Positions 14,414-45,858 of a DNA stretch of 64,000 bases are shown here, piece by piece. The position numbers and the translations under genes are program-made. Position 1 is the first letter of the stretch. Every line of letters starts with the position of its first letter. This stretch comes from Rhodocyclales bacterium (GTDB taxonomy: Bacteria > Pseudomonadota > Gammaproteobacteria > Burkholderiales > Rhodocyclaceae). Below the pieces are notes generated by a model. It was given only the letters and a program-made list of their open reading frames with translations, did no database searches and was not told where the DNA came from. The stretch covers positions 124,001-188,000 of the forward strand of contig JAPLQY010000071.1 in assembly GCA_026399475.1 (NCBI GenBank), given 5' to 3'.

Positions 14414-16426
14414 CTACTTCGTCTTGCTGAAATCCGGCTGGCGCTTTTCCTTGAACGATGAAATGCCTTCGCGGGCGCTCTCCGTGCAAGCCGAGAGGCC
14501 GAAGGCCTTGTAGCCGACTTCCAGCGCGGCGGCAAAGGTATGTGCCGCCGCGGCTTCCAGGATGGCCTGTTCCATGAGGTCGATGCATTCGCGGCTCAGC
14601 ACCTGGCCGCTGGCGGCCCTGGCTTCGACGGCTTCGATGCTGACGGCCACGGGGGCATCGCCGATCGGCGTGACGCGTCCCGATAGTTCGCGCACGCGCG
14701 CAACAGCCATGCCGATCAGCGCGGAATAGTCTTCCGCCAGGCCGCAAACGATGCCCAACTCATGCGCCCGGGTCGCCTTCAGGCGCTCGGCAGTGCGCAG
14801 CATGGCGTTGAAGGTAGCCGTTGCATGCGGCCAGCGCCGGTAGGGCACCACCATGGCACCGATGCCATGGACAATGCCCAGCGTGACTTCGGGCATCTGG
14901 ATCCAGGCGCGCTTCAGCGCCACGATGCCATGGCAGCGCGCTGCCAGCTCGAAACCGCCGCCCAGCGCCATGCCGTTGAGCGCCGCGACTACCGGCTTCT
15001 TCATCTGGTCCAGATGCACCAGCAGCCGCGAACAGTCGCGTGCGTACTGCTCGGAGGCCGGCGCATCGCCCAGCATGTCTACGAAGCGGCCGATGTCGCC
15101 GCCGGCGCAGAAGGCGCGCGTGCCATAGCCGGTGAGGACGAAGCCGGTGACCTTGGGGTCGTTCTCGTAGCGTTGAATGACCGACAGGATCTCGTCGTTC
15201 ATTTCGTCATGCAGCGCATTCATCGCTTCGGGCCGGCGCAGGGTGATGACTTGCACGCCGTCGATGTCATCAACCAGGATGTGGCGCAGGAAGCCCTGGT
15301 AGGCCTTGAAAGGGCGCTGCGGCATTGGCATGCCGCGGCGTTCCTCGCGCAGGCGCATCAGCGCGCCGCCGCTGGTCGCTTCGCCCAGTGTGCGCATCAG
15401 GTCGAGCGGGCCGCTCTTGAAGCCCAGTGCAAGGCGGCAGCCGAGGTCGAGGTCGGCCGAGTCGCCGATCTTGCGGTCGACGATGTCCACGCTCTGCGAG
15501 AAAAGAATGCCGAGCAGTCGCTCGCGCACTGCCTGGGCCGTGCCTGCCGCCACCTCGACGCTCTTGCCGGGCGGCACCGTGATCCAGGTGTCTACCGAGC
15601 GGAACACCGGCGCCGGACGATAGTGTTCGCCTTCTTCTTTGGCCTGCAATGTGTTGGTTTCGGTGATGATCGGATTGCCGCGCGCCAGGTTCAGCACGAA
15701 GAAGGGGCCGGCGTGCACAAACTCGGCGGCGACGCTATCGACTTCGGCGGCGGTGGCGCGGTCGAGCAGCAGTGCGGACTCGTTGCACCAGTTGTCGAAA
15801 ATGCGGTCGAGCATGAAGCAGGCGACGTCGGCCGTCACCAGCGGCACTTTGCCGGTCATGCAGAATACCCAGCGCAGATATTCCACAACGGCCGGATCGG
15901 CCTTGTTCCAGCGGATGACTTCAACCGCCGGATTGCGCCAGGCCGGGGCGAAGAAGTGCGTCACCGTAGCCCGCTCCGGGTGTTTCAGTTGCGAGAATAT
16001 CTGCGCCGCGGGCAGGGAACTGGTGTTGGAGGTGATCAGCGCATCGGGTCGCACCACGGCCTCGATCTGGGCAAAGATCTTGCGCTTGAGGGCAAGGTTT
16101 TCCGTGGCGGCTTCAATGACCCAGTCGCACCCGGCGATGTCGGCATAGTCCAGGGTGCCGACCAGGTTCGAGGTCACCGACGTGGCGTCGGCCTCGCTCA
16201 TCTTGCCCTTGGCCACTGCTTTCTTCGAATAGTCCTGAAAGCGCAGCAGGGCGCCATCCACGGCCTTTTGCGAAACATCGACGAGATAAAGCTTCAGGCC
16301 CGGCAGCGCGCTCTTGAGGTAATAACCGATGTCGGGCCCGATGGTGCCGGCGCCGATCACCGCGACGGCTCGCGGCAGGGCGCGGGCGTGGGTGGCAAGC
16401 AGCGGATTGGCGAAGGCTTTGGTCAT
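14414..16426 (-). CDS. 3-hydroxyacyl-CoA dehydrogenase/enoyl-CoA hydratase fusion
   Basis: A 670-residue bifunctional protein. Residues about 18-380 are the NAD-binding and C-terminal domains of a 3-hydroxyacyl-CoA dehydrogenase (VAVIGAGTIGPDIGYYL, VIEAATENLALKRKIF, TSNTSSLPAAQI, THFFAPAWRNPAVEVI). Residues about 390-670 are a crotonase domain (ALNGMALGGGFELAARCH, FCAGGDIGRF). The order is the reverse of FadB. A fusion of these two activities is part of the indoleacetate cluster of Aromatoleum, where it would hydrate and oxidise 2-aminocinnamoyl-CoA to the 3-oxo ester cleaved by the thiolase. A putative GntR operator stands just upstream of the start, linking it to the main cluster although it sits 8 kb away. 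Confidence 0.85.
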   Translation of the reverse strand: MTKAFANPLLATHARALPRAVAVIGAGTIGPDIGYYLKSALPGLKLYLVDVSQKAVDGALLRFQDYSKKAVAKGKMSEADATSVTSNLVGTLDYADIAGCDWVIEAATENLALKRKIFAQIEAVVRPDALITSNTSSLPAAQIFSQLKHPERATVTHFFAPAWRNPAVEVIRWNKADPAVVEYLRWVFCMTGKVPLVTADVACFMLDRIFDNWCNESALLLDRATAAEVDSVAAEFVHAGPFFVLNLARGNPIITETNTLQAKEEGEHYRPAPVFRSVDTWITVPPGKSVEVAAGTAQAVRERLLGILFSQSVDIVDRKIGDSADLDLGCRLALGFKSGPLDLMRTLGEATSGGALMRLREERRGMPMPQRPFKAYQGFLRHILVDDIDGVQVITLRRPEAMNALHDEMNDEILSVIQRYENDPKVTGFVLTGYGTRAFCAGGDIGRFVDMLGDAPASEQYARDCSRLLVHLDQMKKPVVAALNGMALGGGFELAARCHGIVALKRAWIQMPEVTLGIVHGIGAMVVPYRRWPHATATFNAMLRTAERLKATRAHELGIVCGLAEDYSALIGMAVARVRELSGRVTPIGDAPVAVSIEAVEARAASGQVLSRECIDLMEQAILEAAAAHTFAAALEVGYKAFGLSACTESAREGISSFKEKRQPDFSKTK

Positions 16427-16443
16427 GGCGGAGTCCTGTGTGT

Positions 16444-16456
16444 GTATGCGGTATAC
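16444..16456. promoter_or_regulatory. Putative GntR operator upstream of the fusion gene
   Basis: The sequence GTATGCGGTATAC lies 18 bp before the start codon of the dehydrogenase/hydratase gene. Read on the minus strand it is GTATACCGCATAC, which shares the GTATAC core with the sites at 2316 and 44710. The position close to the start suits a repressor. Confidence 0.45.
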
Positions 16457-16553
16457 AATGGAAATTATCCAACATTATCGCGGCGGACACAATCGCCATG
16501 AGACTCGGCCGCGCGGGCAATTCCTGCCAATCGGCTGAAGACGCCCCCGGCGC

Positions 16554-18616: not shown

Positions 18617-18625
18617 GACACGGGT

Positions 18626-18880: not shown

Positions 18881-18891
18881 CGTACACCTCC

Positions 18892-23999: not shown

Positions 24000-26900
24000 T
24001 CAGTCCGCCTTTGTCGTCACACCCGGTGGCCGATCGAAAGCCGCCATCAGTTCCTTCTGTTTTGCCCGGGCCTGAACAATCGAGCGTTGTTTCACCGGGC
24101 CGTAGCCGCGGATGATCTCCGGGATGCTGGCCAGCGCCACCGCGGTTTCCATGCTGCCGGAATCGAGCTGGTCCAGGATGTGCGCTAGCGTGCGCTCATA
24201 GTCGGCGATCAGTTCACGCTCCTGCCGACGTTCGGCAATCCAGCCAAAGGGGTTGAGCGGCGTGCCACGCAGAAACCTGAGATGGGCGAGCAGCTTCATG
24301 GCCGGCATCAGCCACGGGCCGAAGCGGATTTTTTTCGGCTCGTCGCCGGGCTTCGCGCCGCGGCTCCATGGGAGGGTGATGTGGAAGTTCAGCCAGTAGT
24401 CGCCCTCGAAATTGGCCGCCAGCGAGCGCTGGAATTGCGGGTCGCTGAACAGCCGCGCGACTTCATATTCGTCCTTGTAGGCCAGCAGTTTGAAGTAGTT
24501 GCGCGCCACCGCTTCTGTCAGCAGGCTGCTGCCATTGCCGAGTGCCGCTTCATGCTGTCGGGTTTGTTCGACCAGGGCGACATAGCGACCGGCGTAGGCG
24601 GCGTCCTGATAGGCCGTCAGGGTGACACGGCGACGTTCGACGACTTCGTCGATACTGGCGGATAGCCTGTGTGCCGGGGCGCTGCTTTCGCCGGCGGCAA
24701 GCAGCGCCTCGACGCCGGCCGGATCGAGGGCCGTGCGTCGCCCCCAGGAGAAGGCGCGGCGATTTTCCTCGATGGTCGCGCCGTTAAGCTCTATCGCCCG
24801 CAGCAGGGCCTCTGACGACAGCGGTATCAGGCCGCGCTGGAAGGCGTAGCCGAGCATGAATATGTTGGTGGCAATCGCATGCCCCATCAGGCGCGCGGCA
24901 AGCCGGCTGGCATCGATGAGGGTCGTCGCGTCCGCGCCTACGGCATCGATGATCGACTGCTCCATGGCGCCGGCCGGGAAGGCGCGATCCGGATTGCGCA
25001 CGAACTCGCCGGTAATCGCCTGCCCGGTATTCACGATGGCCTGCGTAATGCCGGAAGCAATCTTGGAGAGGGCATCGTCGCTGACGGCAACGACAATGTC
25101 GCAGGCGAGTACCAGGTTGGCTTCCCCGGTGGCAATCCGCGTCGAATGCAACTGCCGCTGGTGATCGGCAATCCGCACATGCGACATCACGGCGCCGCCC
25201 TTCTGCGCCAGGCCCGTCATGTCGAGCACGGTGACGCCTTTGCCTTCGAGATGCGCGGCCATGCCTATCAGGGCGCCGATGGTCACCACGCCGGTGCCGC
25301 CGACACCGGCGACGAGGATGCCATAGGGCTCTCTCAGCGTGGTGCGCGGGGGTTCCGGCAGATCGGCGAAATCGGCCGGGCCGGACGCTACGGCGCGGCC
25401 GCGGCGGACTTCGCCGCCGTGCACGGTGACGATGCTGGGGCAGAAGCCATTGACGCAGGAGTAGTCCTTGTTGCAGGAATGTTGATCGATGGTGCGCTTG
25501 CGGCCGAACTCCGTCTCGACCGGAGTCACCGCCAGGCAGTTGGACTTGATGCTGCAATCGCCACAACCTTCGCAGACCATTTCGTTGATGAAGACGCGTA
25601 CCGCAGGATCCGGAAAGAGGCCGCGTTTGCGCCGGCGGCGCTTCTCGGCAGCGCAGGTCTGGTCATAGATCAGGGCGGTGACGCCAGGGGTTTCGCGCAG
25701 TTCGCGCTGTGTGGCGTCGAGTTCGTCGCGGTGGCGAATATGGATTCCCGGGGCGAAGTCCGTGATGCTTGCGTACTTCTCCGGTTCGTCGGACATCACC
25801 ACAATGTGCTTCACATCTTCGGCCGCCAGCTGGCGCGTCAGTTGCGGCACCGTCAGCGTGCCGTCGAGTGGCTGGCCACCGGTCATGGCGACGGCGTCAT
25901 TGAAGAGAATCTTGTAGGTAATGTTTATTTTCCCGGCGACGGCCGCGCGAATCGCCAGCAGGCCGGAATGAAAGTAGGTGCCATCGCCCAGGTTGGCGAA
26001 TACGTGCTGTGTGCCACTGTGTCCCGAAACACCCAGCCACGCAGCACCTTCGCCGCCCATCTGGGAAATCGTGAGGGTATTGCGGCCCATCGTCACGGCC
26101 ATCAGGTGGCAGCCGACGCCACCCAGGGCGCAACTGCCTTCGGGGACCTTGGTGGACTGATTGTGCGGGCAGCCCGGACAGAAGTAGGGCATGCGCGTCA
26201 GCGTCGATTTCGGCCTGGCCAGGATCCGGGCTTTGTCCTCGAGGAAGGCTAGATGGTTCGTGATGCGCTCCGAGGTGTGGAATCGACCGATGCGTGCAGC
26301 GATGGCGCGGGCCACGATGGCCGGCGTCAGTTCGGCGGTGGGCGGCAGCAGCCAGCGATTTGCCGGTATCGGCCATTCGCCGGATTCGTCGTACTTGCCG
26401 ACCACGCGCGGGCGTACGTCCTCGCGCCAGTTGTAGAGCATTTCCTTCAACTGGTATTCGATGATCTGGCGCTTCTCCTCGACCACCAGGATTTCCTCCA
26501 GGCCTTCGGCAAAATGGCGCACCGAATCGGCTTCCAGCGGCCAGGGCATGCCCACCTTGAACAGGCGCAATCCCACTTCAGCGGCATACTTTTCGTCGAT
26601 CCCGAGATCGTCGAGGGCCTGGCGCACATCGAGGTAGGCCCTGCCGCAGGCGATGATGCCGAGGCGCGGTCGCGGACTGTCGAAAATGATCCGGTTCAGC
26701 CGGTTGGCGCGGGCATAGGCGATCGCCGCATAGACCTTGAACTCCTGCAGGCGATGTTCCTGCGCCAATTGCGGATCGGGCCAGCGGATGTGCACGCCGT
26801 CCGCCGGCAGTTTGAAATCCTCCGGGATCAGGATCTGGACACGCTCGGGATCGACCTCGACCGTGGATGAACTCTCGGCGGTATCGGAGGTAATCTTCAT

Positions 26901-27494: not shown

Positions 27495-27619
27495 TCTGGA
27501 TTTCCCCCTGTGCTGGTTTGCGCGCGGATTTGTGCAACATTCCGTGCCATCCGTCACATGTGCGACCCGTGCCGGATCGCCACGCTCAACACCCGTTAGC
27601 GGGCGTGTCGGGAACTGTG

Positions 27620-32709: not shown

Positions 32710-32731
32710 GTACTAGCTCCCAATTCTTCGC

Positions 32732-32751
32732 AGGAGCGAGCTTGCTCCTAC
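32732..32751. repeat. Solo REP half-element
   Basis: AGGAGCGAGCTTGCTCCTAC stands in the 53-bp gap between the Mo and 2Fe-2S subunit genes. It matches one arm of the REP elements at 30207 and 42593 joined to the end of the opposite arm, as if the centre had been deleted. Confidence 0.7.
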
Positions 32752-32762
32752 ATCTGTTGCGT

Positions 32763-33239: not shown

Positions 33240-34089
33240 GGCTGAGTATCCTTTTGGTGATGTTATGGATCATTTCCTTGCGGTACCAGGCGCTGGCGCG
33301 CACATCGTCGATCGGCCTGACCTCGTCGCGCGCGACCTCGGCCACCTTCTCGATGGTGGCCGCATCCAGTCGCTGCCCTTCCAGTGCCTTCTCGGTTTGC
33401 GAGGCACGCACCGGCGTCGGTGCGACCGCGCCGAATGCCACCCGGACATTCGACAGTTTGCCTTCCTTGAGGGTTCCGGCGATGCCGATGGAAATCGTCG
33501 ATATGTCGAGCGCCGGTCGCGTGCCGAGCTTGTGGAATCGCGCCACATGATTCTCGCCCGGCAGCGGGATGCGTACGCAGGTCACCAGTTCGCACAGCGA
33601 CTTGCGCGTTTTGCCGGGCCCGACGAAAAAGGTCGATAGCGGCATGCAATGTCGGTAGATCTTGCTTTCCGGCATCGAGGCCAGTTCCACGCAGGCATCC
33701 AGTACCAGCAGCGGGATCAGGGTGTCGCCGGCCGGCGAGGCATTGCAGATGTTGCCGCCCAGCGTAGCGGCATTGCGGATCTGGTCGCTGGCGAAATGGT
33801 CGCAGGCCTCGACCAGCACCGGCAGGTGCTGCCGCACCAGCGGGTGCTGCATGATTTCGGTAATCGTGGCCAGCGCGCCGATGCGGATTTCCCTGCCTTC
33901 CAGCGTGATGCCTGACAGTTGCGGAATGTGGCGGATGTTCATCAGCGTGTGTTTGATCTTGATCCGCCCGGCCTGACTTTGCGGCGTCAGGTCGGTGCCG
34001 CCGGCGAGTATGGTCACGTCGCCGTCTTTGAGGCACTCGACCGCTAGGTCGAGGCTGGTGGGTGCGAAGTAGTGCTTGAGTTCAGTCAT
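33223..34089 (-). CDS. FAD subunit of the molybdenum hydroxylase
   Basis: A 288-residue FAD-binding subunit of the CoxM/XdhB type: VTILAGGTDLTPQSQAG near residue 24, IRIGALATITEI near residue 68 and the second FAD motif IRNAATLGGNICNASPAGDT near residue 104. The extra 40-residue loop with a 4Fe-4S cluster that marks 4-hydroxybenzoyl-CoA reductase HcrB is not present. The enzyme is therefore an ordinary hydroxylase-type electron chain, which agrees with indoleacetate oxidation. I start at ATG 34089; the longer frame begins with unrelated residues inside a REP-like sequence. Confidence 0.9.
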   Translation of the reverse strand: MTELKHYFAPTSLDLAVECLKDGDVTILAGGTDLTPQSQAGRIKIKHTLMNIRHIPQLSGITLEGREIRIGALATITEIMQHPLVRQHLPVLVEACDHFASDQIRNAATLGGNICNASPAGDTLIPLLVLDACVELASMPESKIYRHCMPLSTFFVGPGKTRKSLCELVTCVRIPLPGENHVARFHKLGTRPALDISTISIGIAGTLKEGKLSNVRVAFGAVAPTPVRASQTEKALEGQRLDAATIEKVAEVARDEVRPIDDVRASAWYRKEMIHNITKRILSHVAQT

Positions 34090-34107
34090 TAGTGTTGTCC
34101 TTGATGC

Positions 34108-34150
34108 AGGAGCGAGCGATTGTGCCGCCATCGCAAGCAAGGTCGCTCCT
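34108..34150. repeat. Degenerate REP element
   Basis: AGGAGCGAGCGATTG and, after a short loop, CAAGCAAGGTCGCTCCTACG form an imperfect inverted repeat in the 93-bp gap between the FAD-subunit and mutase genes. It is a decayed relative of the REP units at 30207 and 42593. Confidence 0.6.
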
Positions 34151-35796: not shown

Positions 35797-36194
35797 TTGA
35801 CCTCCTTGCGGATGAACTCGGTGATGGCATCGAGTTTCGAGCCCGAAGGAAAAATCCCCTTGAAGCCAAGATCGCGCAGCGCCTCATGGTCCTGCGCCGG
35901 CAGGTTGCCGCCGATCACCCAGAGCTTGTCGGTCAGGTCGTTGGCTTCGAGCAGGGGCTTGAGTTTGCGGCAGAAGGGGATATGCGAACCGGCCATGGAG
36001 GACAGTGAAATCACGTCGACGTCCTCTTCGAGTGCGATGCGCGCGATCTGCTCCGGCGTCTGGCGCAGTCCCGTATAGATCACCTCGAAGCCGGCGTCCA
36101 TCATGGCGCGCGCCACGACCTTGGCGCCCTGGTCGTGGCCATCGAGGCCGGGTTTGCCGAGCAGGACCTTGATCCGGCGTGGTGCTTGCGTCAT
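35793..36194 (-). CDS. B12-binding small subunit of the acyl-CoA mutase
   Basis: A 133-residue cobalamin-binding domain protein. The signature DxHxxG is seen as KPGLDGHDQGAKVVA at residues 14-28, with the histidine serving as lower axial ligand; SLSSMAGSH and the glycine-rich WVIGGNLPAQD follow, as in the C-terminal domain of methylmalonyl-CoA mutase. The gene is coupled on both sides by four-base overlaps with the acyl-CoA dehydrogenase and the large-subunit gene. I start at ATG 36194; the upstream continuation in this frame is antisense noise within the dehydrogenase gene. Confidence 0.92.
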   Translation of the reverse strand: MTQAPRRIKVLLGKPGLDGHDQGAKVVARAMMDAGFEVIYTGLRQTPEQIARIALEEDVDVISLSSMAGSHIPFCRKLKPLLEANDLTDKLWVIGGNLPAQDHEALRDLGFKGIFPSGSKLDAITEFIRKEVK

Positions 36195-37324
36195 GACGAT
36201 ACTTCCTTGGCAATGATGAGTTTCAGCATCTCGCTGGTGCCGCCGCCGATCAGGGTGAAGCGCACATCGCGCAGGTAGCGTTGCACCGGATACTCCATGG
36301 CGTAGCCGTAGGAGGCGAACACTCGTGCGGCCTTGTCGCAGACCGTGGCGGCGGTTTCGGTGGCGAACAGTTTCGCCATCGCTGCTTCCTTGTGGTACGG
36401 CTTGCCCGCATCGCGTCGCCACGCCGCGTAATACACCAGGTGGTCGGCGGCTTCGAGTTCGGTGGCCATTTCGGCCAGCTTCATCTGTATCGCCTGGTAG
36501 CGGTTGATCGCCTTGCCGAATTGCTGGCGCTCGCCGGCATAGCGCACGGCTTCCCCCAGAGCGGCGTATGCAACGCCGAGGCCCATTGCGCCGGTAATGA
36601 TGCGGATCTCGCCCAGGGTCTTACGCAGGTGACCCTCGCCATCGCCTTCCGCTCTGGACAGGCGGTGGCTGTCGGGCACGAAGCATTCGTCGAACGCGAC
36701 TTCCGAGGTCGGCAGCGCCCAGACGCCCATCTTGTGGATTTCGCGGCCGACGGTGATGCCCTTGAAATGCTTCTCGACGAGGAAGATGGTGAGCTTCTTC
36801 TCCTCGCCGGCCTTGGCGAATACAGTGAAGAAATCGGCCACCGGCGCCGAGGTGATCCAGGTCTTCTGGCCGTTGATGACGTAGCCGCCGTCGACCTTTT
36901 TTGCGGTGGTTGCGATCGAGCCAAGGTCGGAGCCGGAGTTGGGTTCGGTCATGCAGATCGCTCCGATCTTCTCGCCGCGCAGCGCCGGCTTGAACAGGCG
37001 CTCGATGATGTCTTCATTGCCCAGCTGGTGGAGGAACTTGGTGCCCATCAGCGACTGCATGGCCACGGCACCGGCCAGGGACATCGAGCCGCGCGCGATT
37101 TCCTGCAGGGCGAGGCAGAACTCGGTCAGCGCCATCCCCGTCCCGCCGACATCCTCGGGATAGCGCATGCCGAAGAAGCCCAGGTCGGCCAGTTCCTGAA
37201 ACAATGCACGCGGATACACCTTCGCCTCGTCGAGCGCGGCAGCCTGCGGCGCGATGCGCTCGTCGCAAAAGCGAGCGAAGGTGTCGCGGATGGACTGCTG
37301 TTCGCTGGTCAGTTCAAAGTTCAT
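36191..37324 (-). CDS. iaaF: Decarboxylating acyl-CoA dehydrogenase (benzylmalonyl-CoA dehydrogenase-like)
   Basis: A 377-residue acyl-CoA dehydrogenase with the usual three domains, including the flavin segment ICMTEPNSGSDLGSI near residue 123 and the C-terminal FASYGYAMEYPVQRYLRD. The catalytic glutamate of the motif YEGT is replaced: residues 359-363 read IGGGT, with Gly361 at the base position. No glutamate stands at the alternative isovaleryl-type position either. In Aromatoleum, IaaF oxidises and decarboxylates benzylmalonyl-CoA to cinnamoyl-CoA, and loss of CO2 replaces proton abstraction, so no base is required. The missing glutamate and the position directly before the mutase genes fit that reaction closely. 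Broader acyl-CoA families also contain IGGGT variants. Confidence 0.88.
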   Translation of the reverse strand: MNFELTSEQQSIRDTFARFCDERIAPQAAALDEAKVYPRALFQELADLGFFGMRYPEDVGGTGMALTEFCLALQEIARGSMSLAGAVAMQSLMGTKFLHQLGNEDIIERLFKPALRGEKIGAICMTEPNSGSDLGSIATTAKKVDGGYVINGQKTWITSAPVADFFTVFAKAGEEKKLTIFLVEKHFKGITVGREIHKMGVWALPTSEVAFDECFVPDSHRLSRAEGDGEGHLRKTLGEIRIITGAMGLGVAYAALGEAVRYAGERQQFGKAINRYQAIQMKLAEMATELEAADHLVYYAAWRRDAGKPYHKEAAMAKLFATETAATVCDKAARVFASYGYAMEYPVQRYLRDVRFTLIGGGTSEMLKLIIAKEVSS

Positions 37325-37328
37325 TGTT

Positions 37329-38923
37329 CTAGGCGGCCTCGTAGCCGTAGTCGCGCCGTGCCGACTCGAGGGTGATCACGCCATTCCTGATCTCGTCGGC
37401 CAGCAGCTTCCGGTCGCGCTTCTTCGGATCGCCGTAGCCGCCGCCGCCGCTGGCGACCTGATGGTAGGTGGTGCCCATGGGGACACCGGTGATCAGGTCC
37501 TTGTTCTTCGGCACCACGGTCTGGCCGTCCGGGTAGTGCAGGCGGATGAAGTTGAGGCCGCCTTCGCCGCCGCCGAAGAGGCCGAAGGCCGGTTCGAAAT
37601 CGCCGTCGCCGAAGGTCACCAGTTGCGTGTCATCCGACCCGATCCTGAAAATCGTCTCGACGCCGAGGCCACCGCGCCATTCGCCAGCACCGGCGGAGTC
37701 GGTCAACAGTTCGTGCTTGATCAGGGTGTGCGGCGTCTGCTGCTCGAACATTTCGTAGTCCTGGTCGAGCACGCCGCCCGAGGCGTCGATCATGCCGATA
37801 TGGTCGTAGCCATCGGTGCCGAGCATGGCGCCGGAGCCGCCCTTGAGGCCCATGAAGCCGATGTCGACGTACTTCTCGTTGTTCTTCGGATCGATGCCGG
37901 TGGTCAGCGATGCCAGCAGATTGTTCCAGCCGGCCGTGACGCGATCGGGCATCACCGGGGCCAGCGCGCGCTGGATGGCGTCGGCGTTGGGCGGGCAGAG
38001 GTGGTTGCCGAAGGTGGTGGCCTTCGGGTAGGCGGCATTGAGGATGGTGCCGAGGCGCTCGAGGTGAAGGTGCCATTCACGAAGCCATTGGTCTGGGGAT
38101 CGGTACGCGAGTAGTCGAACTTGATGTGCTTGTCCTTGACTTCGATGTCCACGCGAATGGTGTATTTCGAGCCGACGAAGCGGCCATCGTAGTAGACGTA
38201 GCCTTCGCCCGAGTAGTTGCCGTTGGGAATCTTGGCGATCTCGGCTTCCATCATCTTGCGCGTGGCCTCGAACAGCGCCTGCTTGTGGCTCTCGTAGCTC
38301 GCCACGCCGTATTTCTTCAGCAGTTCCAGCAGGCGGCGCTCGCCGACCGTGCAGGCGCCCATTTCGGCCTTCATGTCGTGCTGCACGATGTCGAGGCGCA
38401 CGTTGGCGAAGATCAGACCCCACACGTCCTTGCGCAGCTTGCCGCGCTCGACCACCTTGACCGGCGGAATGCGCAGGGCTTCCTGCCAGACCTCGACGGC
38501 ATTCGGGTTGTAGCCGCCGGCCACATTGCCGCCGATGTCCGCCTGGTGCCCCTTGACCGCCGTCCATGCCACCAGCTTGTCCTCGAAGAACACCGGCTTG
38601 AAGGCGGCGACATCGTTGTTCTGGTTGCCCAGGCTGAACACGTCGTTGTGGAAGATCACGTCGCCGGGATAGATCTCGTCGCCGAAAAACTCCTTGATGT
38701 ATTTGCACACCGGCGCCAGCGAAAACGCCAGGATGGGCAGGTTCTCGGTCTGCTCCAGCATGTTGCCGTCGGCGTCATAGAGGCCGGTGACGTAGTCCTT
38801 GGCCTCGCAGAGGATCGGCGAGCGCGTGGTCTGCTCCATCGAAATGCTCATCTCGTCGGTGATCGACTTGAAGGTCCGGGCATAGACGGAGAGCAGGATC
38901 GGGTCGATTTTTTGGGCGCTCAT
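37329..38923 (-). pseudogene. Hydantoinase B-like subunit, frameshifted with internal deletion
   Basis: The N-terminal 283 or so residues (MSAQKIDPILLSVYA to TNGFVNGTFTS) and the C-terminal part (from GTILNAAYPKATTFG to YGYEAA) are both clear HyuB-family sequence but lie in different frames. At about 38055-38066 the reading frame changes and roughly 30 residues that normally lie between these segments are missing. This means a deletion of about 80-90 bp that is not a multiple of three. HyuB pairs with HyuA in ATP-dependent hydrolysis of cyclic amides; here the two would open the lactam ring of 2-oxo-indoleacetate. The gene is complete at both ends and keeps four-base coupling to hyuA. Either the strain lost the function or the assembled sequence contains an error. 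Confidence 0.75.
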
Positions 38924-41025
38924 GCCAGTGCCTCCGTGTTTACCTTGGTGTCCTTGAAGCACGATAGCGCGAGATCCTCGCGGCCCTTCTGGTAGATGAC
39001 GAAGGAACCCAGCGCGTCGACGGCACAGTCGTAGGCGTCGCTGACGAAGATCGCCGTGGTGACCTGTTCGATCATCGCCGGGCCGGCGATGCGGTTGCCG
39101 AAGTGCATCTTGTGGCCGTCGTAGACCGGGGTTTCGCGGAAGGTCTTGGTCTCCGGGATGTACATGCTGCGCTTGCCCTTCAAGGCCTTGGACGCATCGG
39201 CGCCGACCCAGACTTCCTGGCGGTAGGTGGGCTTGTCGGTGATGCCGATGGCCTGGACGCGGACGTTGATGATTTCGATCGGCGTCTTCTCGCCTTCCAG
39301 CGAATAGCCGTAGAGCCGGTTGTGCTCGTCGTTGAAGGCGTGGGCGATGGCGGCGGTATCGCGACTGTCGATCAGCTCGCGCGGCACCGTGAAGGACACC
39401 TCGTGGTACTGCTTGATGTAGCGGCAGTCGAACCTGACCTCGTAGCGGCGGCGCTCCTCGGCGATGCGCTCCTCGACCAGTTGCCGCGTGCCGTCCGCCG
39501 ACATCTCGTCGATCATGCCGGTCAGCTTCGGCCAGTCGATGGCTTCCAAACGGGAAACGAAGGTGCGCACGAAGTCGTGCTTGAGTTCGCTCATCAGCAT
39601 GCCGAAGGCGCACAGCACCGAGGATTCGCGCGGCACGATCTGCAGCGGGATTTCGAGCTCGCTGCAGATCAGGCAGGAGTGGATCGGGCCGGCGCCGCCG
39701 GCGGGAATGAAGGGGAACTCGCGCGGATCGAAGCCGCGCTTGATGGTGACCTCGCGCACGCCTTGCGCCATGTTGTTGCAGGCGACGCGATACATGCCGG
39801 CCGCGGCTTCCTCGACGGACAGCCCCATGGGTTTCGCGATGTGCTCCTCGATTGCGGCACGCGCCGCCGCCGCGTCGAGCTTCATCCTGCCGCCGGCGAA
39901 GAAGGCGTCGGTGGTGGCAGGGAGCCGGCCGCCCTTGCTGTAGCAGGCCGGACCGGGGTCGGCGCCGGCGCTTTGCGGGCCCATGCGCAACATGCCGCCT
40001 TCATCGAGCCAGCCGATCGAGCCGCCGCCGGCGCCGATGGTATGGATGTCGAGCATGGGCAGGGCGATCTTGTGGCGGGCGATTTCGCCGTCGTTCTTGA
40101 TCATCGGCGCATCCACCGCGACCGAAGCCTCGAAACTGGTGCCACCCATGTCGGTGGTGATGCACTTGTTCTGGCCGTGCAGGCGGACGTAGAACAGGCC
40201 GGCGCCGGGACCGCCGGCGGGGCCGGAGAGCAGGGTCAGGGCCGCCTTCTCGCGCGCCAGCTGCGGCGAGATGACGCCGCCGTTGGATTGCATGATCAGC
40301 AGCAAATTCCTGAAGCCGATGCCCTTGAGCCGGCCGACCAGCTGGTCGAGGTAATGGTTGAGCTTCGGTCCGACATAGGAGTTGAGCGCCGTGGTGCTGA
40401 CGCGTTCGTAGAAGCGGATCGAGGGCAGGAGGTCGGTCGATACCGAGAGATAGGCGCCGGGCATTTCCTTCTTCACCAGTTCGGCTGCCGCTTGTTCGTG
40501 GACCGGGTTGGCAAAGGAATTCATGAAGCAGATCGAGACTGCCTGCACGCCCTCCTGCTTGAACAGATCGATCGCCTGTTTGATCTGGCCGAGATCGAGC
40601 GGCGCGGTCTCCGCACCATTGCGGTCGAGGCGACCGCTGATGCCGGCGCGCAGATAGCGCGGCACCAGGGGCTTGACGTTGGTGTAGCGGTTGTTGTACT
40701 GCTCCTCGCGGATGCCGCGGCGCATTTCCAGGGCGTCCCTCACGCCTTCCGTGGTAAGCAACCCGCACTTGGCGCCGGTGCCGGTCAGCGTGGCGTTGGT
40801 CGTCACGGTGGTGCCATGCACGATGGTGTCGATGGTCGGCGCGAAGGCCTCCAGAGTCAGCGGCGGGTTCATGCTGGCGGCGATGTCGGTGAGGCCGTTG
40901 ACCACGGCGATCGAGGGATCGGACGGGGTCGATAGCGTCTTGAAGATCGCCGGCTCGGCGTCGTCGCGGGTGACGACGAAGTCGGTGAAGGTTCCGCCGA
41001 CGTCGATTCCGATCTTAAGCGCCAT
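38920..41025 (-). CDS. Hydantoinase A-like subunit (ATP-dependent cyclic amide hydrolase)
   Basis: A 701-residue HyuA/acetophenone-carboxylase-type subunit with an actin-like ATPase fold: KIGIDVGGTFTDFVV at residues 3-17, VHGTTVTTNATLTGTGAK near residue 69, ITTDMGGTSFEASV near residue 290, and GGAGPIHSCLICSELEIP near residue 440. The indoleacetate clusters of Azoarcus and Aromatoleum contain a hydantoinase-like enzyme thought to open the oxindole ring to a phenylsuccinate derivative. The gene stands between the CoA-ligase gene and the broken B-subunit gene, with which it overlaps by ATGA. Carboxylase or oxoprolinase activity is formally possible from the family alone. Confidence 0.88.
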   Translation of the reverse strand: MALKIGIDVGGTFTDFVVTRDDAEPAIFKTLSTPSDPSIAVVNGLTDIAASMNPPLTLEAFAPTIDTIVHGTTVTTNATLTGTGAKCGLLTTEGVRDALEMRRGIREEQYNNRYTNVKPLVPRYLRAGISGRLDRNGAETAPLDLGQIKQAIDLFKQEGVQAVSICFMNSFANPVHEQAAAELVKKEMPGAYLSVSTDLLPSIRFYERVSTTALNSYVGPKLNHYLDQLVGRLKGIGFRNLLLIMQSNGGVISPQLAREKAALTLLSGPAGGPGAGLFYVRLHGQNKCITTDMGGTSFEASVAVDAPMIKNDGEIARHKIALPMLDIHTIGAGGGSIGWLDEGGMLRMGPQSAGADPGPACYSKGGRLPATTDAFFAGGRMKLDAAAARAAIEEHIAKPMGLSVEEAAAGMYRVACNNMAQGVREVTIKRGFDPREFPFIPAGGAGPIHSCLICSELEIPLQIVPRESSVLCAFGMLMSELKHDFVRTFVSRLEAIDWPKLTGMIDEMSADGTRQLVEERIAEERRRYEVRFDCRYIKQYHEVSFTVPRELIDSRDTAAIAHAFNDEHNRLYGYSLEGEKTPIEIINVRVQAIGITDKPTYRQEVWVGADASKALKGKRSMYIPETKTFRETPVYDGHKMHFGNRIAGPAMIEQVTTAIFVSDAYDCAVDALGSFVIYQKGREDLALSCFKDTKVNTEALA

Positions 41026-41052: not shown

Positions 41053-42579
41053 TCATTGGGGTGCTTCGGCGCGCGCGACCATCTTGCGTACGTCTTCCTT
41101 TCTCACCTTGCCCAGGGCAGTTTTCGGCAAAGCCTCGACCACCAACACTTCCTTGGGATACTTGTAGCGGGCGATGCGGCCTTCCAGGAGCTTCAGCACC
41201 TGTTCGCCGGTAACCACGCGGTCGGCTCGCGGCACGACAACGGCGACGACGATTTCGCCCCAGCGCTCGTCGGGCCGGCCGATCACCGAGGCTTCGGCGA
41301 TATCGGGACATTCGATCAGCAGGTTTTCGATCTCGGCCGGATAGATGTTCTCGCCGCCGGAGATGATCATCTCCTTGCTGCGGCCAACGACGGTGAGGTA
41401 GCCTTCGGCGTCGAAATAGCCGATGTCGCCTGTACGGTACCAGCCGTCCTTGAGCGCCGCATCGGTGGTCTGCGGAGACTTCCAGTAACCCGCCATGACA
41501 TTGCGGCCCTTGACGAGAATTTCGCCGGCTTGCCCCGGCGGCAGGTCGGTTGCATTGCCAGCAACGATGCGAAGCTGGCAATGCGCGGCCGAACGGCCGG
41601 TTGATCCGACTTTGCGCACGGCCTCTTCGCGCGTGAGGTAGGCGGCGATCGGGCAGGTTTCCGTGGCGCCGTAGACCTGCGGCATCGGCACGCCGCGGGC
41701 GTGCACGGCCTCGATCAGGTGCGTGGGCACGATCGACGAGCCGATGCTCATCATGCGCAGGCTGGAGAGGTCGGTGGTGGCCCAGTGCGGGCTGGCCATC
41801 ATCATGTCGACCACGGCGGGCACCACCAGCATCAGCGTGATCCGTTCGCGCTCGATGGCCTCCAGCGCCGCGTCGGGATCGAAGCGCGGATGCAGCACCA
41901 GCGTGCAGCCCGCGCGCAGCGCCGGCGTGGTCTGGATGTTGAGGCCGCCGACATGAAACAGGGGCAGCACCGTCAGCACGCGGTCGTCGGGCGACAGGGC
42001 GTGCATGTCCGCACTGTTGTCGGCGTTGCAGGCGATGGCGCCCTGGGTGAGCAGCACGCCCTTGGGTTTTCCGGTCGAGCCGGAGGTGTAGCAGATCAGC
42101 AGCGGCGTGTCCTCGCCGACCGCCGGATCACGCGGCGCCGGACCCTTGGCCTGGCCACAAAACTCGGTCCAGGAGATCCAGCCCCGATCGGCGGCGCCGA
42201 AGCTGATCAGCGTCAGCGGACCCAAGTCGTCGCGCAAGGCGTCCGTCTGGGCGACATACTGAGGCTCGACGAAGAGCAGGGCAGGCGGACAGTCCTGCAG
42301 CATTTGCAGGTGTTCGGCGCCGGCCAGTCGCCAGTTGAGCGGCATGAAAAGCGCGCCGAGGCGGGCGCAGGCAAACAGCAGCGCCAGCATTTCCGGGCTG
42401 TTGCAGCCGAGGTATGCCACGCAGTTGCCGCGTTGTACGCCGGAGGCCGCAAGGGTGGCCGCCAGCCGGTCGATCAGATTCGCCAGCTCCGCGTACGAAA
42501 CGTCGCGTCCCGAAAAGCGAATGGCCGTCTTGTCCGGAACCCGCCCGGCGTTATCCGATATCCAGTCGGCGAGGTTCAC
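41053..42579 (-). CDS. iaaB: Aryl-CoA ligase, probable indoleacetate-CoA ligase
   Basis: A 508-residue AMP-forming ligase: LICYTSGSTGKPKGVLLTQG near residue 155, QVYGATETCP near residue 288, YRTGDIG near residue 377, ISGGENIYPAEIENLL and the catalytic lysine in PKTALGKVRK near residue 487. The start is GTG at 42579, where the conserved sequence NLADWISDNAGRVPDKTA begins; the longer frame reads into a REP palindrome. In Aromatoleum the cluster ligase IaaB activates indoleacetate to indoleacetyl-CoA. That ester may serve signalling or a side route, because the main path starts with free indoleacetate. It lies between the thiolase and hydantoinase genes as in that cluster type. Confidence 0.82.
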   Translation of the reverse strand: MNLADWISDNAGRVPDKTAIRFSGRDVSYAELANLIDRLAATLAASGVQRGNCVAYLGCNSPEMLALLFACARLGALFMPLNWRLAGAEHLQMLQDCPPALLFVEPQYVAQTDALRDDLGPLTLISFGAADRGWISWTEFCGQAKGPAPRDPAVGEDTPLLICYTSGSTGKPKGVLLTQGAIACNADNSADMHALSPDDRVLTVLPLFHVGGLNIQTTPALRAGCTLVLHPRFDPDAALEAIERERITLMLVVPAVVDMMMASPHWATTDLSSLRMMSIGSSIVPTHLIEAVHARGVPMPQVYGATETCPIAAYLTREEAVRKVGSTGRSAAHCQLRIVAGNATDLPPGQAGEILVKGRNVMAGYWKSPQTTDAALKDGWYRTGDIGYFDAEGYLTVVGRSKEMIISGGENIYPAEIENLLIECPDIAEASVIGRPDERWGEIVVAVVVPRADRVVTGEQVLKLLEGRIARYKYPKEVLVVEALPKTALGKVRKEDVRKMVARAEAPQ

Positions 42580-42592
42580 TGTGTAGATCTCT

Positions 42593-42648
42593 TGTAGGAG
42601 CGAGCTTGCTCGCGATCGGCGCCGATCGCGAGCAAGCTCGCTCCTACA
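42593..42648. repeat. Perfect 56-bp REP palindrome
   Basis: Two 28-base arms with no loop (arm begins TGTAGGAGCGAGCTTGCTCG and runs to 42620; the mirror arm is 42621-42648) form a perfect palindrome in the 94-bp gap between the thiolase and ligase genes. The unit is the same as at 30207. It sits only 13 bases above the ligase GTG, so in RNA it would fold a long hairpin close to the ribosome site. Confidence 0.9.
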
Positions 42649-42673
42649 GGGGATGGATTCAACATGGCTGGCT

Positions 42674-43879
42674 TTACGCGTCGCAGACTTCCAGCACCAC
42701 CGACATCGCGGTGTCGCCCGCGGCGCAGCCGGTGAACAGGCCAAAGCCGCCACCGCGCAGCGCCAGTTCCTCGATCAGTTCGATGATCGCTCGCGTGCCC
42801 ATCGGCGCCTGGGGATGCCCCCACACCAGCGAGCAGCCGTAGTTGTTCATCGACTTCAGGTCGGCGCCGGTCTGCTTGGCAAAAAACAGGTCGCTAACCG
42901 CAAACGGGTTATGCGTCTTGATCGCGGTCATCTGCGCAACGCTGCGTCCCGCCTGGTTCAGCGCGCACTGCGCTGCCGGCAGCATCGCTTCGGGCATATA
43001 CGCGAGTGCGACACGCGCGAGGCCGAAGCCGTGAAGACGCACGGCGATTTTCGGGTCGGCGGACAGCTCCCGCGCCTTTTCACGCGTGGTGACAACAATT
43101 GCCGCGTTGCCGTCGGCCGGATGAGTCTGCGCACCGAAGGTAACGGTGCCGCCCGGCATGACCGGCTTCAATTTTGCCAGGCCTTCGGGGGTTGACTGCG
43201 ATATGCCTTCGTCACCCGCCATGGTGCTTGCGGTTTTCTTGAAGTTGGGTGCCGGTACGTCGAAGGGCAGGGTCATGAAGCGCCTGAGGAAGGCCGAGTC
43301 ATTCTCCTGCGAACGCCGGTACTGCTCTTCGCGCCGCAGGACCAGTTCGTGCTGTTCCGCCGTACCGATGCCGTGTCTGGCGGCGACGTTTTCCGCCGTC
43401 TGCAGCATCGCGTGCCCACCGAGTGGATCATTGCCGAAGTTATCCATCACCCAGTCCTCTGCTGCGCCGGTGCCGCCGGGGCCGCGCGGATTGGGGTAAT
43501 AAATATGCGGTCCGTTCGAAGTGCGGTCGCAATTGATGGCGAGCACAGTGCTGGCCAGGCCGACTTCGATTTCCTGAGCCGCGCAGAGCAGTGTGCGCAC
43601 GCCGGTAGCGCAGGCCTGCATCAGCGTCGGGCCGCCGGCCTGGGTGGCGCCGATCAATCCGGTAAGCCACGGCAGGCCATAAAAGGAGTGTTTCTGCGGC
43701 ACCGAAAAACCCAGCACTCCGTAGTCGAAGCTCTTGGGGTCGATCTTGCGTTTGGCCAATTCCATTCGCGCCACATGCGCAGCGAACTCAATGCTGTGCA
43801 GGTTGGCGAAGCTGCCCTGCCAGCGGGCAAAGGGCGTACTCCAATAGGCACCGTAGGGGATTTCTGCTTTGTAGGTCAT
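42674..43879 (-). CDS. Thiolase, probable 2-aminobenzoylacetyl-CoA thiolase
   Basis: A 401-residue thiolase of the SCP2/acetyl-CoA acetyltransferase type. The nucleophilic cysteine is Cys90 in MQACATGVR, the histidine is His355 in WGHPQAPMGTR, and the second cysteine is Cys385 in FTGCAAGDTA. A beta-ketothiolase is part of the indoleacetate gene cluster, where it would cleave 2-aminobenzoylacetyl-CoA with CoA to 2-aminobenzoyl-CoA and acetyl-CoA. It is the first enzyme gene after the regulator in this minus-strand array. The product would feed directly into the anthraniloyl-CoA module at the start of the window. Confidence 0.88.
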   Translation of the reverse strand: MTYKAEIPYGAYWSTPFARWQGSFANLHSIEFAAHVARMELAKRKIDPKSFDYGVLGFSVPQKHSFYGLPWLTGLIGATQAGGPTLMQACATGVRTLLCAAQEIEVGLASTVLAINCDRTSNGPHIYYPNPRGPGGTGAAEDWVMDNFGNDPLGGHAMLQTAENVAARHGIGTAEQHELVLRREEQYRRSQENDSAFLRRFMTLPFDVPAPNFKKTASTMAGDEGISQSTPEGLAKLKPVMPGGTVTFGAQTHPADGNAAIVVTTREKARELSADPKIAVRLHGFGLARVALAYMPEAMLPAAQCALNQAGRSVAQMTAIKTHNPFAVSDLFFAKQTGADLKSMNNYGCSLVWGHPQAPMGTRAIIELIEELALRGGGFGLFTGCAAGDTAMSVVLEVCDA

Positions 43880-43960
43880 TTCGATTTCTCTTTATGCGTG
43901 GCGCATGGATGTCCGGCGTGCAGATTTGCGTCTCGCCGGTATTTGAAGCAAGCTTCCTTG

Positions 43961-44668
43961 CTATTGTGCAGAGGCATTTTTCTCCGCCTCTTTTTCCCTG
44001 TCGATCTGGGCTATCGCCTCGATAAGAAAGTGCTTGGCCGCCTCCAGATGCTTGTGCATTGCGGCAGCGGCTGCGTCCGCGTCGCGCTTTTTGAACGCGC
44101 CATGAATGTTCTTCATGCCAGTCAGGGCGGCTTTCCTTGCGGTCGCGTCACCCAGCGTCAGGACGCGCAGGAAACGCACATGACCAACGTACTGGTCGAG
44201 GAGTTTCGACATCCGCCGATTGGGCACCAGTGCGCGCCAGGCGTTGTGGAAGCGGCTGTTGGCGTCCAGGAATGCGCGGAAGTCACCGCCTTTTTCTGCG
44301 GCCACAGCATCGTCGATCGCCGACGCCATGCTCGCCAGGTCGGCGGCGCCGGTGATTTCGGCGATGGCACTGCGGGCTGCCGCGGGTTCCAGCAGAAAGC
44401 GCAACTGGTAGATTTCCTCAACGTCGGCATCGGTCAGTTCGGGAACAACGAAGCCGCGCCCCTCGACGGAAATCATGCCTTCGTTTTCGAGGCGTGCCAA
44501 AGCTTCACGCACTGGGGTTCGCGAAACGCCGAGTTGTGCTGCCAGGCTCACCTCCTGCAAGCGCTCTCCGGGTCGAATCTGGTGGCTGCCGATGTTGTCG
44601 CGCAACTGGTGATAGACCCGATCCGCCAAGCCTGCGGGCCGGTCAAGGGGCTTGATTGACGTGTTCAT
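43961..44668 (-). CDS. GntR family (FCD) transcriptional regulator
   Basis: A 235-residue regulator. The N-terminal winged helix-turn-helix (about 14-80) reads LADRVYHQLRDNIGSHQIRPGERLQEVSLAAQLGVSRTPVREALARLENEGMI in two halves; the C-terminal all-helical FCD domain (about 90-215) has metal- or acid-binding-type residues FHNAWRAL and MHKHLEAAK. FCD regulators usually repress catabolic genes and release on binding the substrate or its CoA ester. The gene heads the indoleacetate array, is divergent from meaB, and has a candidate operator 42 bp upstream. Motif copies elsewhere suggest it controls the whole indole/anthranilate regulon. Confidence 0.92.
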   Translation of the reverse strand: MNTSIKPLDRPAGLADRVYHQLRDNIGSHQIRPGERLQEVSLAAQLGVSRTPVREALARLENEGMISVEGRGFVVPELTDADVEEIYQLRFLLEPAAARSAIAEITGAADLASMASAIDDAVAAEKGGDFRAFLDANSRFHNAWRALVPNRRMSKLLDQYVGHVRFLRVLTLGDATARKAALTGMKNIHGAFKKRDADAAAAAMHKHLEAAKHFLIEAIAQIDREKEAEKNASAQ

Positions 44669-44709
44669 GGCAGAATCAAATGTGCTATTGCACTCGCGTC
44701 ACGGAATAC

Positions 44710-44723
44710 TGGATACTGTATAC
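44710..44723. promoter_or_regulatory. Putative GntR operator in the gntR-meaB promoter region
   Basis: TGGATACTGTATAC is the exact reverse complement of the 14-base motif at 2316-2329. It lies in the 95-bp gap between the divergent gntR and meaB genes and could control both. Confidence 0.6.
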
Positions 44724-44763
44724 GCAGTAAGTCAGGGGTGTCAATAGGAACGGGCGACAATTG

Positions 44764-45858
44764 ATGAGTCTTTTGCTTGATGATTTGGCAGCGCGGGTGG
44801 CGGCCGGAGAGCGCCCCGCACTGGCGCGGGCGCTTTCACTGGCCGAACGGGATTCGGCCTCCGCCGCGGAGCTTCTCTCGCGTCTCGCGGGCAGCCTGGG
44901 CCGGGCTCATGTAATCGGCATTACCGGACCGCCGGGCGCAGGCAAGTCCACCCTGGTTGGCGCGATGCTGCGGCACTTTCTGCAACTGGGGAAGCGTGTG
45001 GCGGTGCTTGCCGTGGACCCGTCAAGCCCGGTGACTGGAGGGGCTTTGCTGGGAGATCGATTTCGCATAGGCGAGTCCGCTGCTGACGATCGGTCGTTCA
45101 TCCGCTCGACAGCAACGCGTGGCAGTCTGGGCGGACTGACCCGCGCCGCCCGGCAAATGGTCGAACTGATGGATGCAGCGGGATTCGATCTGGTGATCGT
45201 CGAAACCGTCGGCACCGGCCAGTCCGAGATCGATGTCGCACGGCTGGCCGACACAACGCTGGTCGTGTTCCCGCCGGGTCTGGGTGACGAACTGCAGGCG
45301 ATCAAGGCCGGCATCCTTGAACTGGCGGATTTGCTCGTGGTTACCAAGAGCGATACGCCGGGTGCGAATCTGGCCTGCCAGGCATTGCAAACCGTTGCGC
45401 CGCTGTGGAGTAACTCACCGCCAATCCACCCCGTCAGCGCGCTGACAGGCGAAGGAATTCCTGATCTGGCAGAAGCGATTTTGGCCAGCGCTCAAGCTCC
45501 ACGGCGAACGGCGCGGAGTGCCAGTCAAACCACGGAACAAGCGCCATCTTCCCTGGCGAACATGTTTCAGCGCCTGCGGGTCGAACTGGATATTCGCTTG
45601 CCCTTCGATCTGGTTGAGGGTTTATCGATGCAGTTGTTGGATACTGAAGCCGATCCTCAATCCGCCGGTCTGCAGGTTCTGCTGAGTGTCCGCCCTGGCG
45701 GTGACACATTTCAACTTGGTGCCGTAGCGGGGGCGCTGATTGTCCTTGCCAGCGAAATCGACTTGAATTGCAGCGTGCAGGATCTGGATCTCGCAGGCGG
45801 CAGGATGCAGTTGCTGCTGGAATTGAGGAAGGAATCTTCTGGCACGAGTCGTTCCTGA
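44764..45858 (+). CDS. meaB: MeaB-type GTPase chaperone of B12-dependent mutase
   Basis: A 364-residue G3E GTPase. The P-loop GPPGAGKST is near residue 58, the switch region VDPSSPVTGGALLGDR near residue 86, DLVIVETVGTGQSE near residue 143 and the guanine motif VTKSD near residue 196. MeaB loads adenosylcobalamin into acyl-CoA mutases and protects or reactivates them. The only mutase in the window is the two-subunit enzyme at 34.2-36.2 kb. The location divergent to the GntR gene, with a shared operator, supports service to that enzyme. Translation is taken from ATG 44764; the preceding TTG is less likely. Confidence 0.9.
   Translation: MSLLLDDLAARVAAGERPALARALSLAERDSASAAELLSRLAGSLGRAHVIGITGPPGAGKSTLVGAMLRHFLQLGKRVAVLAVDPSSPVTGGALLGDRFRIGESAADDRSFIRSTATRGSLGGLTRAARQMVELMDAAGFDLVIVETVGTGQSEIDVARLADTTLVVFPPGLGDELQAIKAGILELADLLVVTKSDTPGANLACQALQTVAPLWSNSPPIHPVSALTGEGIPDLAEAILASAQAPRRTARSASQTTEQAPSSLANMFQRLRVELDIRLPFDLVEGLSMQLLDTEADPQSAGLQVLLSVRPGGDTFQLGAVAGALIVLASEIDLNCSVQDLDLAGGRMQLLLELRKESSGTSRS

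Follow-up and report, generated by a model that had tools for sequence, protein, structure and literature searches.

A candidate OYE-family 2-aminobenzoyl-CoA reductase gene near an indoleacetate operon in a Rhodocyclales bacterium

Passages of PMC4539516 describe, for Azoarcus evansii, an anaerobic conversion of anthranilate to benzoyl-coenzyme A (benzoyl-CoA) via a 2-aminobenzoyl-CoA reductase, and the activity or the name of this enzyme is also mentioned in passages of PMC8271443 and PMC3737221, whereas for 4-aminobenzoyl-CoA in Desulfatiglans a different enzyme type is suggested in passages of PMC7500099. A gene for the anaerobic 2-aminobenzoyl-CoA reductase was not seen named in those parts of the open-access literature that our searches returned, and a published assignment is possible in subscription papers, which lay outside that scope. 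The known aerobic enzyme acting on 2-aminobenzoyl-CoA (ACMR) is a fused monooxygenase/reductase protein. Here we describe a window, the whole 64,000-nucleotide stretch that was analysed (positions 124,001 to 188,000 of contig JAPLQY010000071.1, assembly GCA_026399475.1, of a Rhodocyclales bacterium; G000:C32:124001-188000), which by its gene content holds an indoleacetate (iaa) operon of an already known kind at 14.4-45.9 kb and, at 1-7.4 kb, an anthranilate module containing an OYE-family flavoenzyme gene. We modestly favour the reading that the iaa operon yields 2-aminobenzoyl-CoA and that the flavoenzyme (2352-4346) is the anaerobic 2-aminobenzoyl-CoA reductase that would feed it into the benzoyl-CoA pathway. 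The assembly amounts to 4.2 Mb in 114 contigs with 9.08% contamination in its record, and its nearest relatives by the CoA-transferase gene are mostly Sulfuritalea or Rhodocyclales bins (first rows 93-91% identity).

The anthranilate module and its flavoenzyme

Read from its 5' end, the module consists of a divergent LysR gene (a call that rests on reading of its sequence and its relatives), a salicylate-type ligase, a monooxygenase and the flavoenzyme, with a probable anthranilate ligase and RidA directly downstream of the latter, followed by two small paralogous orphans:

1..1144, forward strand, aryl ligase lig1 of the (2,3-dihydroxybenzoyl)adenylate-synthase type, salicylate-type, 3' part; start upstream of the window (L135:456-2144)
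1141..2292, forward strand, stand-alone flavin adenine dinucleotide (FAD) monooxygenase, like the N half of salicylyl-CoA 5-hydroxylase or ACMR
2352..4346, forward strand, OYE-family three-domain flavoenzyme of 664 amino acids, proposed 2-aminobenzoyl-CoA reductase
4367..5995, forward strand, probable 2-aminobenzoate-CoA ligase, start approximate, 69% to the A. evansii abm ligase
5992..6390, forward strand, RidA-type enamine/imine deaminase
6387..6773, forward strand, small orphan protein, paralog of the next
6773..7237, forward strand, small orphan protein with relatives near the flavoenzyme gene

The best PDB match of the flavoenzyme is 6qkg (3.3e-116), which passages of PMC12093976 and PMC6502838 identify as 2-naphthoyl-CoA reductase (NCR), followed by FadH (1ps9, 2.9e-67); its flavin mononucleotide (FMN)-barrel and FAD/NAD-type domains are homologous to NCR along the whole protein. 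Comparison with the NCR residues named in passages of PMC6502838 revealed that Y197, Y82, R245 and E341 are kept, whereas H284 is replaced by Gln, V38 by Cys and W459 by Leu; three of the four NCR cluster cysteines (367, 374 and 386) are present, and a one-residue deletion accompanies the loss of the fourth, 370. Across an alignment of 39 distinct ortholog sequences, the window's included, the proton donor Y197, E341 (Ser in FadH) and E333 are kept in all 39, and Y82 and Y88 in 38 with one gap each.

The part of the contig that precedes the window (G000:C32:84001-124000) carries boxA-, boxB-, boxC- and boxR-like genes, bzdN, bzdO, two ATPase subunits and a ferredoxin, together with an 868-amino-acid NAD(P)-oxidoreductase-like protein, dch, had, oah, a benzoate-CoA ligase and a Liv-type transporter. 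Here bzdN, bzdO, bzdQ, had, oah and boxB passed their NCBIfam cut-offs and the ligase (L115:11191-12771) exceeds that for benzoate-CoA ligase; dch is the best NCBIfam match of its gene yet falls below cut-off, and the remaining names were assigned by position and reading of the sequence.

Orthologs of the flavoenzyme (E <= 1e-200) are rare, occurring in 4 of 399 Burkholderiales genomes and 1 of 398 genomes of a phylum sample (the window's own in both), and the flavoenzyme gave no match on plasmids at 1e-100 and no pattern match on virus contigs. A. evansii KB740 carries two copies of the gene and EbN1 a single one at E <= 1e-200 (G538:C1:1232521-1234497). Among 150 genomes of the family, 21 carry it, 26 a bzdN-like gene, 18 iaaF, 8 the stand-alone monooxygenase and 39 fused-ACMR-type frames, with bzdN counted at an identity of at least 66% (excluding BzdN matches of 25-28%, the sole ones in G035, G490, G553 and G555) and the monooxygenase at 60% or more (excluding lower matches, fused or distant). 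The 21 flavoenzyme genomes overlap with bzd in 18 cases, with iaaF in 16, with the monooxygenase in 5 and with fused-ACMR-type frames in 17. The gene is present in all 14 genomes with both bzd and iaa versus 4 of 12 with bzd alone (Fisher p 0.0003), and its odds ratios reach 91 for benzoyl-CoA reductase and 203 for iaa as against 13 for the monooxygenase; all 10 iaa genera fall among the 13 flavoenzyme genera, of 68. The three flavoenzyme genomes below the bzdN threshold (G490, G541, G555) each have a BcrA/D-type gene pair over the Pfam cut-off, which hints at the other class I subtype there, a weaker indication because the family is also over cut-off in 8 of 14 control genomes.

Gene neighbourhoods give a similar picture. 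Five loci (L121, L128, L129, L141, L148) present divergent bzd genes, the 868-amino-acid gene, dch, had, oah, the flavoenzyme, GntR, thiolase, iaaB and HyuA, the last nine genes of the row sharing one direction, and in an EbN1-type genome, likely that of Aromatoleum aromaticum EbN1, the flavoenzyme, RidA and a small protein are found some 13 kb beyond the binding-protein end of the iaa row. Counted within 7 kb and at minimum identities of 45-60%, set gene by gene, and with contig ends truncating some loci, the 38 non-window loci have RidA in 24 cases, any of dch, had or oah in 10, bzd or the 868-amino-acid gene in 6, iaa genes in 6, an anthranilate-type ligase in 9, the monooxygenase in 9 and fused ACMR in 3. 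In the flavoenzyme tree the window's enzyme falls in a clade of 29 rows (support 100/98), and RidA, iaa genes or fused ACMR lie near it and near all 28 other clade rows, versus 2 of 10 rows outside. Some genomes stand under two handles or locus ids (for example G063/G457, G071/G011 and L028/L035), leaving the loci partly non-independent.

Relatives of the two small orphans (6387-7237) neighbour the flavoenzyme at many loci; in L123, L124, L125 and L151 such a gene and the end of the flavoenzyme gene overlap. They gave no useful Pfam match (one member 0.0013 to an unrelated family, one 0.14) and no credible PDB sequence match (best 0.04), and the AlphaFold model was poor (mean predicted local distance difference test score 56.1), with no fold match at E <= 0.001; an SCP2-like fold, suspected by eye, was supported by nothing in the Pfam, PDB or fold searches.

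Proposed route and rival explanations

On the reading we favour, indoleacetate would be turned into 2-aminobenzoyl-CoA by the molybdenum hydroxylase, hydantoinase ring opening, CoA activation and transfer, the B12 mutase, the decarboxylating IaaF and beta-oxidation. This product needs an enzyme for oxygen-free entry to the benzoyl-CoA pathway. The position, co-occurrence and fold family of the flavoenzyme together point to it as the enzyme that would hand 2-aminobenzoyl-CoA to the pathway encoded by the bzd genes upstream, with low-potential electrons passing into FAD and then FMN and a hydride onto the thioester-activated ring. Its predicted product might be benzoyl-CoA, formed by reductive deamination, which is favoured by the absence of RidA from the stretch read in the five bzd-flavoenzyme-iaa loci. 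Alternatively, it might be a dihydro compound that RidA would open to the Oah substrate, bypassing the ATP-dependent reductase, as is favoured in some loci by RidA and oah/had neighbours; in A. buckelii (L123) the stretch read contains oah and had but neither dch nor bzd. Held more tentatively, and with rather less conviction than the substrate assignment, is the wider suggestion that the flavoenzyme could be an ATP-independent OYE-type monocyclic aryl-CoA reductase with a three-Cys Fe-S site and a small orphan partner, perhaps bypassing benzoyl-CoA reductase via RidA and Oah. If true, ATP-independent aryl-CoA reduction would extend from polycyclic to monocyclic rings and the plant hormone auxin would have a complete oxygen-free route into central metabolism; the flavoenzyme is a single, rare and well-conserved candidate gene that is present in culturable Aromatoleum strains, and hence testable.

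A number of observations weigh against this assignment. The substrate of NCR is a bicyclic ring, and a monocyclic ring is harder to reduce. All 39 orthologs carry the Fe-S motif C-x2-S-x2-C-x11-C, which retains three rather than all four of the [4Fe-4S] cysteines of NCR, and all 39 have Gln in place of H284, so that electron transfer may differ from that in NCR. Two genomes with iaa lack the flavoenzyme (G035 and G464, the latter also without a BcrA/D-type match). The stand-alone monooxygenase co-occurs with it above chance (5 of 21 flavoenzyme genomes versus 3 of 129 others), and the 9 of 38 loci in which the two are near each other (10 if L153 and L161, one genome, are merged) include three deep branches. 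Fused-ACMR-type frames are found in 17 of the 21 genomes versus 22 of the 129, and flavoenzyme genomes thus often have an aerobic route. Several flavoenzyme loci have a salicylate-type ligase without an anthranilate marker, so salicyl-CoA may be the substrate for part of the family. Finally, the co-occurrence statistics ignore kinship, and the genomes are related and their counts non-independent.

The reading of the module that was considered first, close to that of the first-pass annotation, holds that the monooxygenase (1141-2292) and the flavoenzyme form a split aerobic ACMR, with hydroxylation at C5 followed by ring reduction. It gains from the adjacency of the two genes in the window, L126, L127, L134 and L136, from the proximity within 7 kb and the odds ratio of 13 given above, and from the best NCBIfam match of the monooxygenase, the N half of the bifunctional salicylyl-CoA 5-hydroxylase/oxidoreductase; it was nevertheless demoted to an unlikely rival on distribution, neighbourhood, a fused homolog and ligase type. 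At 60% identity, 16 of the 21 flavoenzyme genomes lack the stand-alone monooxygenase and 3 of the 8 monooxygenase genomes lack the flavoenzyme, and the two genes are near each other in 4 of 28 rows inside the window's clade and 5 of 10 outside, a label that needs 6 changes on the tree and thus implies repeated gain or loss. Elsewhere in the same genome (G000:C77), a 785-amino-acid open frame of the fused ACMR type, 38% identical to the window's monooxygenase over its N part and 59% to the fused ACMR of G490, is accompanied by ECH-, ACDH- and RidA-like genes, and in three loci a fused ACMR stands beside the flavoenzyme. The ligase preceding the monooxygenase is, moreover, of the salicylate type. 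The first-pass annotation had joined an anthranilate module to the iaa genes and given it an oxygen-dependent attack on 2-aminobenzoyl-CoA; the association stands, as the module lies near iaa and the abm operon of A. evansii adjoins iaa, and the oxygen-dependent step is doubtful, because the window has the monooxygenase and the flavoenzyme as separate genes and no fused ACMR of the abm operon, while a fused homolog exists elsewhere in the genome, and because the flavoenzyme is much more strongly linked with bzd and iaa than with the monooxygenase. The oxygen-dependent reading of the ring step was probably mistaken.

The monooxygenase itself is probably a salicyl-CoA 5-hydroxylase, and its neighbours in two loci fit a route from salicyl-CoA to gentisate. 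Salicyl-CoA fits it better because a salicylate-type ligase precedes it and a gentisate-dioxygenase-like gene adjoins it in one relative. The best NCBIfam match of this ligase, lig1, is (2,3-dihydroxybenzoyl)adenylate synthase, below cut-off, as for its counterparts in L123, L124, L125, L156 and L161. The relative is L159, where the adjoining gene is similar to gentisate 1,2-dioxygenase, with a score below cut-off. About 6-8 kb from the monooxygenase in this locus are a maiA-type isomerase, which passes its cut-off, and a gene of the fumarylacetoacetate-hydrolase family, which does not; L124 also has a gene of that family, at a distance of about 1 kb, and two more neighbours there were read by eye only. 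No gentisate-route genes of the L159/L124 type were found beside the monooxygenase in the window.

The same ligases raise the question of whether the flavoenzyme acts primarily on salicyl-CoA (2-hydroxybenzoyl-CoA), or on ortho-substituted benzoyl-CoA in general, with only a secondary link to anthranilate. Orthologs of lig1 (43-88%) accompany it in L123, L124, L125, L126, L150, L151, L159, L160 and L161, the A. buckelii row (L123) reads ligase, had, flavoenzyme, small protein, oah, had and RidA, and a two-electron reduction of salicyl-CoA would chemically yield the Oah substrate directly. This appears improbable for the window's enzyme, since all 29 rows of its clade have RidA, iaa or fused ACMR nearby as opposed to 2 of 10 outside, an anthranilate-type ligase follows the flavoenzyme gene in the window, and the product of the iaa pathway is an amino compound. 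It is less probable still that the flavoenzyme is an unrelated reductase, acting on enoyl-CoA or dienoyl-CoA in general beta-oxidation, that came to cluster here by chance; the family does include FadH and BaiCD-type enzymes, but the orthologs are rare (4 of 399 and 1 of 398) and track iaa and bzd.

The indoleacetate operon and its surroundings

The genes at 14.4-45.9 kb, with the evidence for each in brackets, are as follows:

14414..16426, reverse strand, 3-hydroxyacyl-CoA dehydrogenase/enoyl-CoA hydratase (HAD/ECH) fusion (Pfam; near iaa genes in A. evansii)
24000..27500 (stretch 24.0-27.6 kb), reverse strand, indolepyruvate:ferredoxin oxidoreductase, start approximate (NF009588, 1738 bits, cut-off 952)
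27777..28928, reverse strand, periplasmic binding protein, iaaM-like (Pfam; A. evansii and EbN1-type comparison)
28998..30191, reverse strand, class III CoA transferase, iaaL-like (Pfam; A. evansii and EbN1-type comparison)
30280..32709, reverse strand, molybdenum hydroxylase large subunit (Pfam; EbN1-type order)
32763..33239, reverse strand, molybdenum hydroxylase 2Fe-2S subunit (Pfam; EbN1-type order)
33223..34140, reverse strand, molybdenum hydroxylase FAD subunit (Pfam; EbN1-type order)
34183..35796, reverse strand, mutase large subunit, iaaGH-like (Pfam; EbN1-type order)
35793..36200, reverse strand, mutase B12-binding subunit, start approximate (Pfam; EbN1-type order)
36191..37324, reverse strand, benzylmalonyl-CoA dehydrogenase iaaF, GGG motif at residue 360 (Pfam; motif; EbN1-type order)
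37329..38925, reverse strand, hydantoinase B (HyuB), frame broken near 38,048, start approximate (Pfam in two frames)
38920..41025, reverse strand, hydantoinase A (HyuA) (Pfam; EbN1-type order)
41053..42600, reverse strand, indoleacetate-CoA ligase, iaaB-like, start approximate (Pfam; EbN1-type order)
42674..43879, reverse strand, thiolase (Pfam; EbN1-type order)
43961..44668, reverse strand, GntR/FCD regulator (Pfam; EbN1-type order)
44761..45858, forward strand, MeaB-type mutase-associated GTPase (Pfam)

Every gene class that the first-pass annotation had named here was recovered by Pfam, with MeaB in addition, and its identification of the set with the indoleacetate genes of A. evansii and A. 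aromaticum is borne out by a gene order collinear with the EbN1-type genome and two A. evansii clusters; the claim of one island holds for the gene set and fails for continuity, as 16.5-24 kb and 24.0-27.6 kb hold non-iaa genes. The EbN1-type genome presents GntR, thiolase, ligase, HyuA, HyuB, IaaF, the small and large mutase subunits, the M, S and L subunits of the molybdenum hydroxylase, the CoA transferase and the binding protein in the same order, with identities from 47% (GntR) up to 86%. The gene-specific parts of both iaaF primers given in passages of PMC8360864 match this genome exactly, and its strain name is likely rather than certain because they match A. buckelii (L072) too. A. evansii has two iaa rows in the order of the window, one in L162 and another in L163 that continues into L164, its CoA transferase being reached in L163 and its binding protein in L164, where the abm operon with fused ACMR adjoins; beside the first row, L066 shows the same neighbours, its end cut inside an ACMR-like stretch. 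Passages of PMC8360864 give GGG in place of YEG as diagnostic of IaaF, and the window's IaaF has this GGG.

As assembled, HyuB reads in two frames, so not every gene of the operon is intact. In all 45 non-window loci that a HyuB motif picked out (some genomes under two ids) the frame is intact across the site. The distance separating two fixed points is 144 bases in relatives as against 53 in the window, a loss of 91 bases near 38,048 on which 53 of 53 matched stretches agree, repeated genomes included. The deletion may be genuine or may reflect misassembly of a metagenome-type bin, and the indoleacetate pathway would accordingly be blocked here or whole; HyuA is single-copy in the genome at E <= 1e-100.

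The molybdenum hydroxylase (30280-34140) comes in two kinds among similar iaa clusters (L035-L114). In the comparison set, the best 80 loci of 177 encoding stretches from the genome collection, its large subunit was more than half covered in 69, of which 48 were at least 60% identical to the window's and 21 below that (mostly 51-56%); the adjacent mutase is at least 67% identical in nearly all of these loci, L109 being an exception. Of 42 related loci spanning 20 kb or longer, 23 encode the indolepyruvate:ferredoxin oxidoreductase, absent from the first-pass gene list, with an identity of at least 60%; the enzyme could channel tryptophan-derived indoleacetyl-CoA straight into the IaaL step.

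Further genes surround these. A TrpB-like pyridoxal-phosphate enzyme (7778-9160; NF009057 over cut-off) separates the anthranilate module from the XdhC/MobA/SufS genes, and the XdhC-, MobA-, SufS- and NifU-type genes at 9456-13792 likely supply molybdenum cofactor and Fe-S to the hydroxylase. Genes between 16.5 and 24 kb encode an M28 peptidase, CcdB, a ClpX-like ATPase, an additional CoA ligase, NnrS and a TRAP binding protein; the CcdB-family gene (18296-18616) falls within the 2-kb stretch of lowest G+C (0.563, 18-20 kb), and Pfam reported no zinc-binding ClpX domain in the ClpX-like AAA ATPase (334 amino acids, 18952-19956). At 46286-59474, two aldehyde:ferredoxin oxidoreductases, a TRAP transporter, a phenylacetate-CoA ligase-type gene, rubrerythrin and a KorAB-type pair form what looks like an aryl-aldehyde/arylacetate module.

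Relation to known systems

Set against the iaa operon of A. aromaticum EbN1 and A. evansii, the window has the same genes, the same order and the same IaaF motif, and differs in its broken HyuB and in the adjoining indolepyruvate:ferredoxin oxidoreductase. With the abm operon of A. evansii it shares the anthranilate-type ligase (69%) and RidA (58%), whereas the fused ACMR of that operon has its homolog in the window's genome on another contig. Of the bzd-type benzoyl-CoA reductase cluster, bzdN, bzdO, bzdQ, had and oah are on the window's contig, though outside the window. Relative to NCR, a type III aryl-CoA reductase, the flavoenzyme has 35% identity over its full length and the equivalents of Y197, Y82, R245 and E341, but it lacks Cys370, carries the H284-to-Gln and W459-to-Leu replacements and sits in a context of monocyclic aryl-CoA metabolism.

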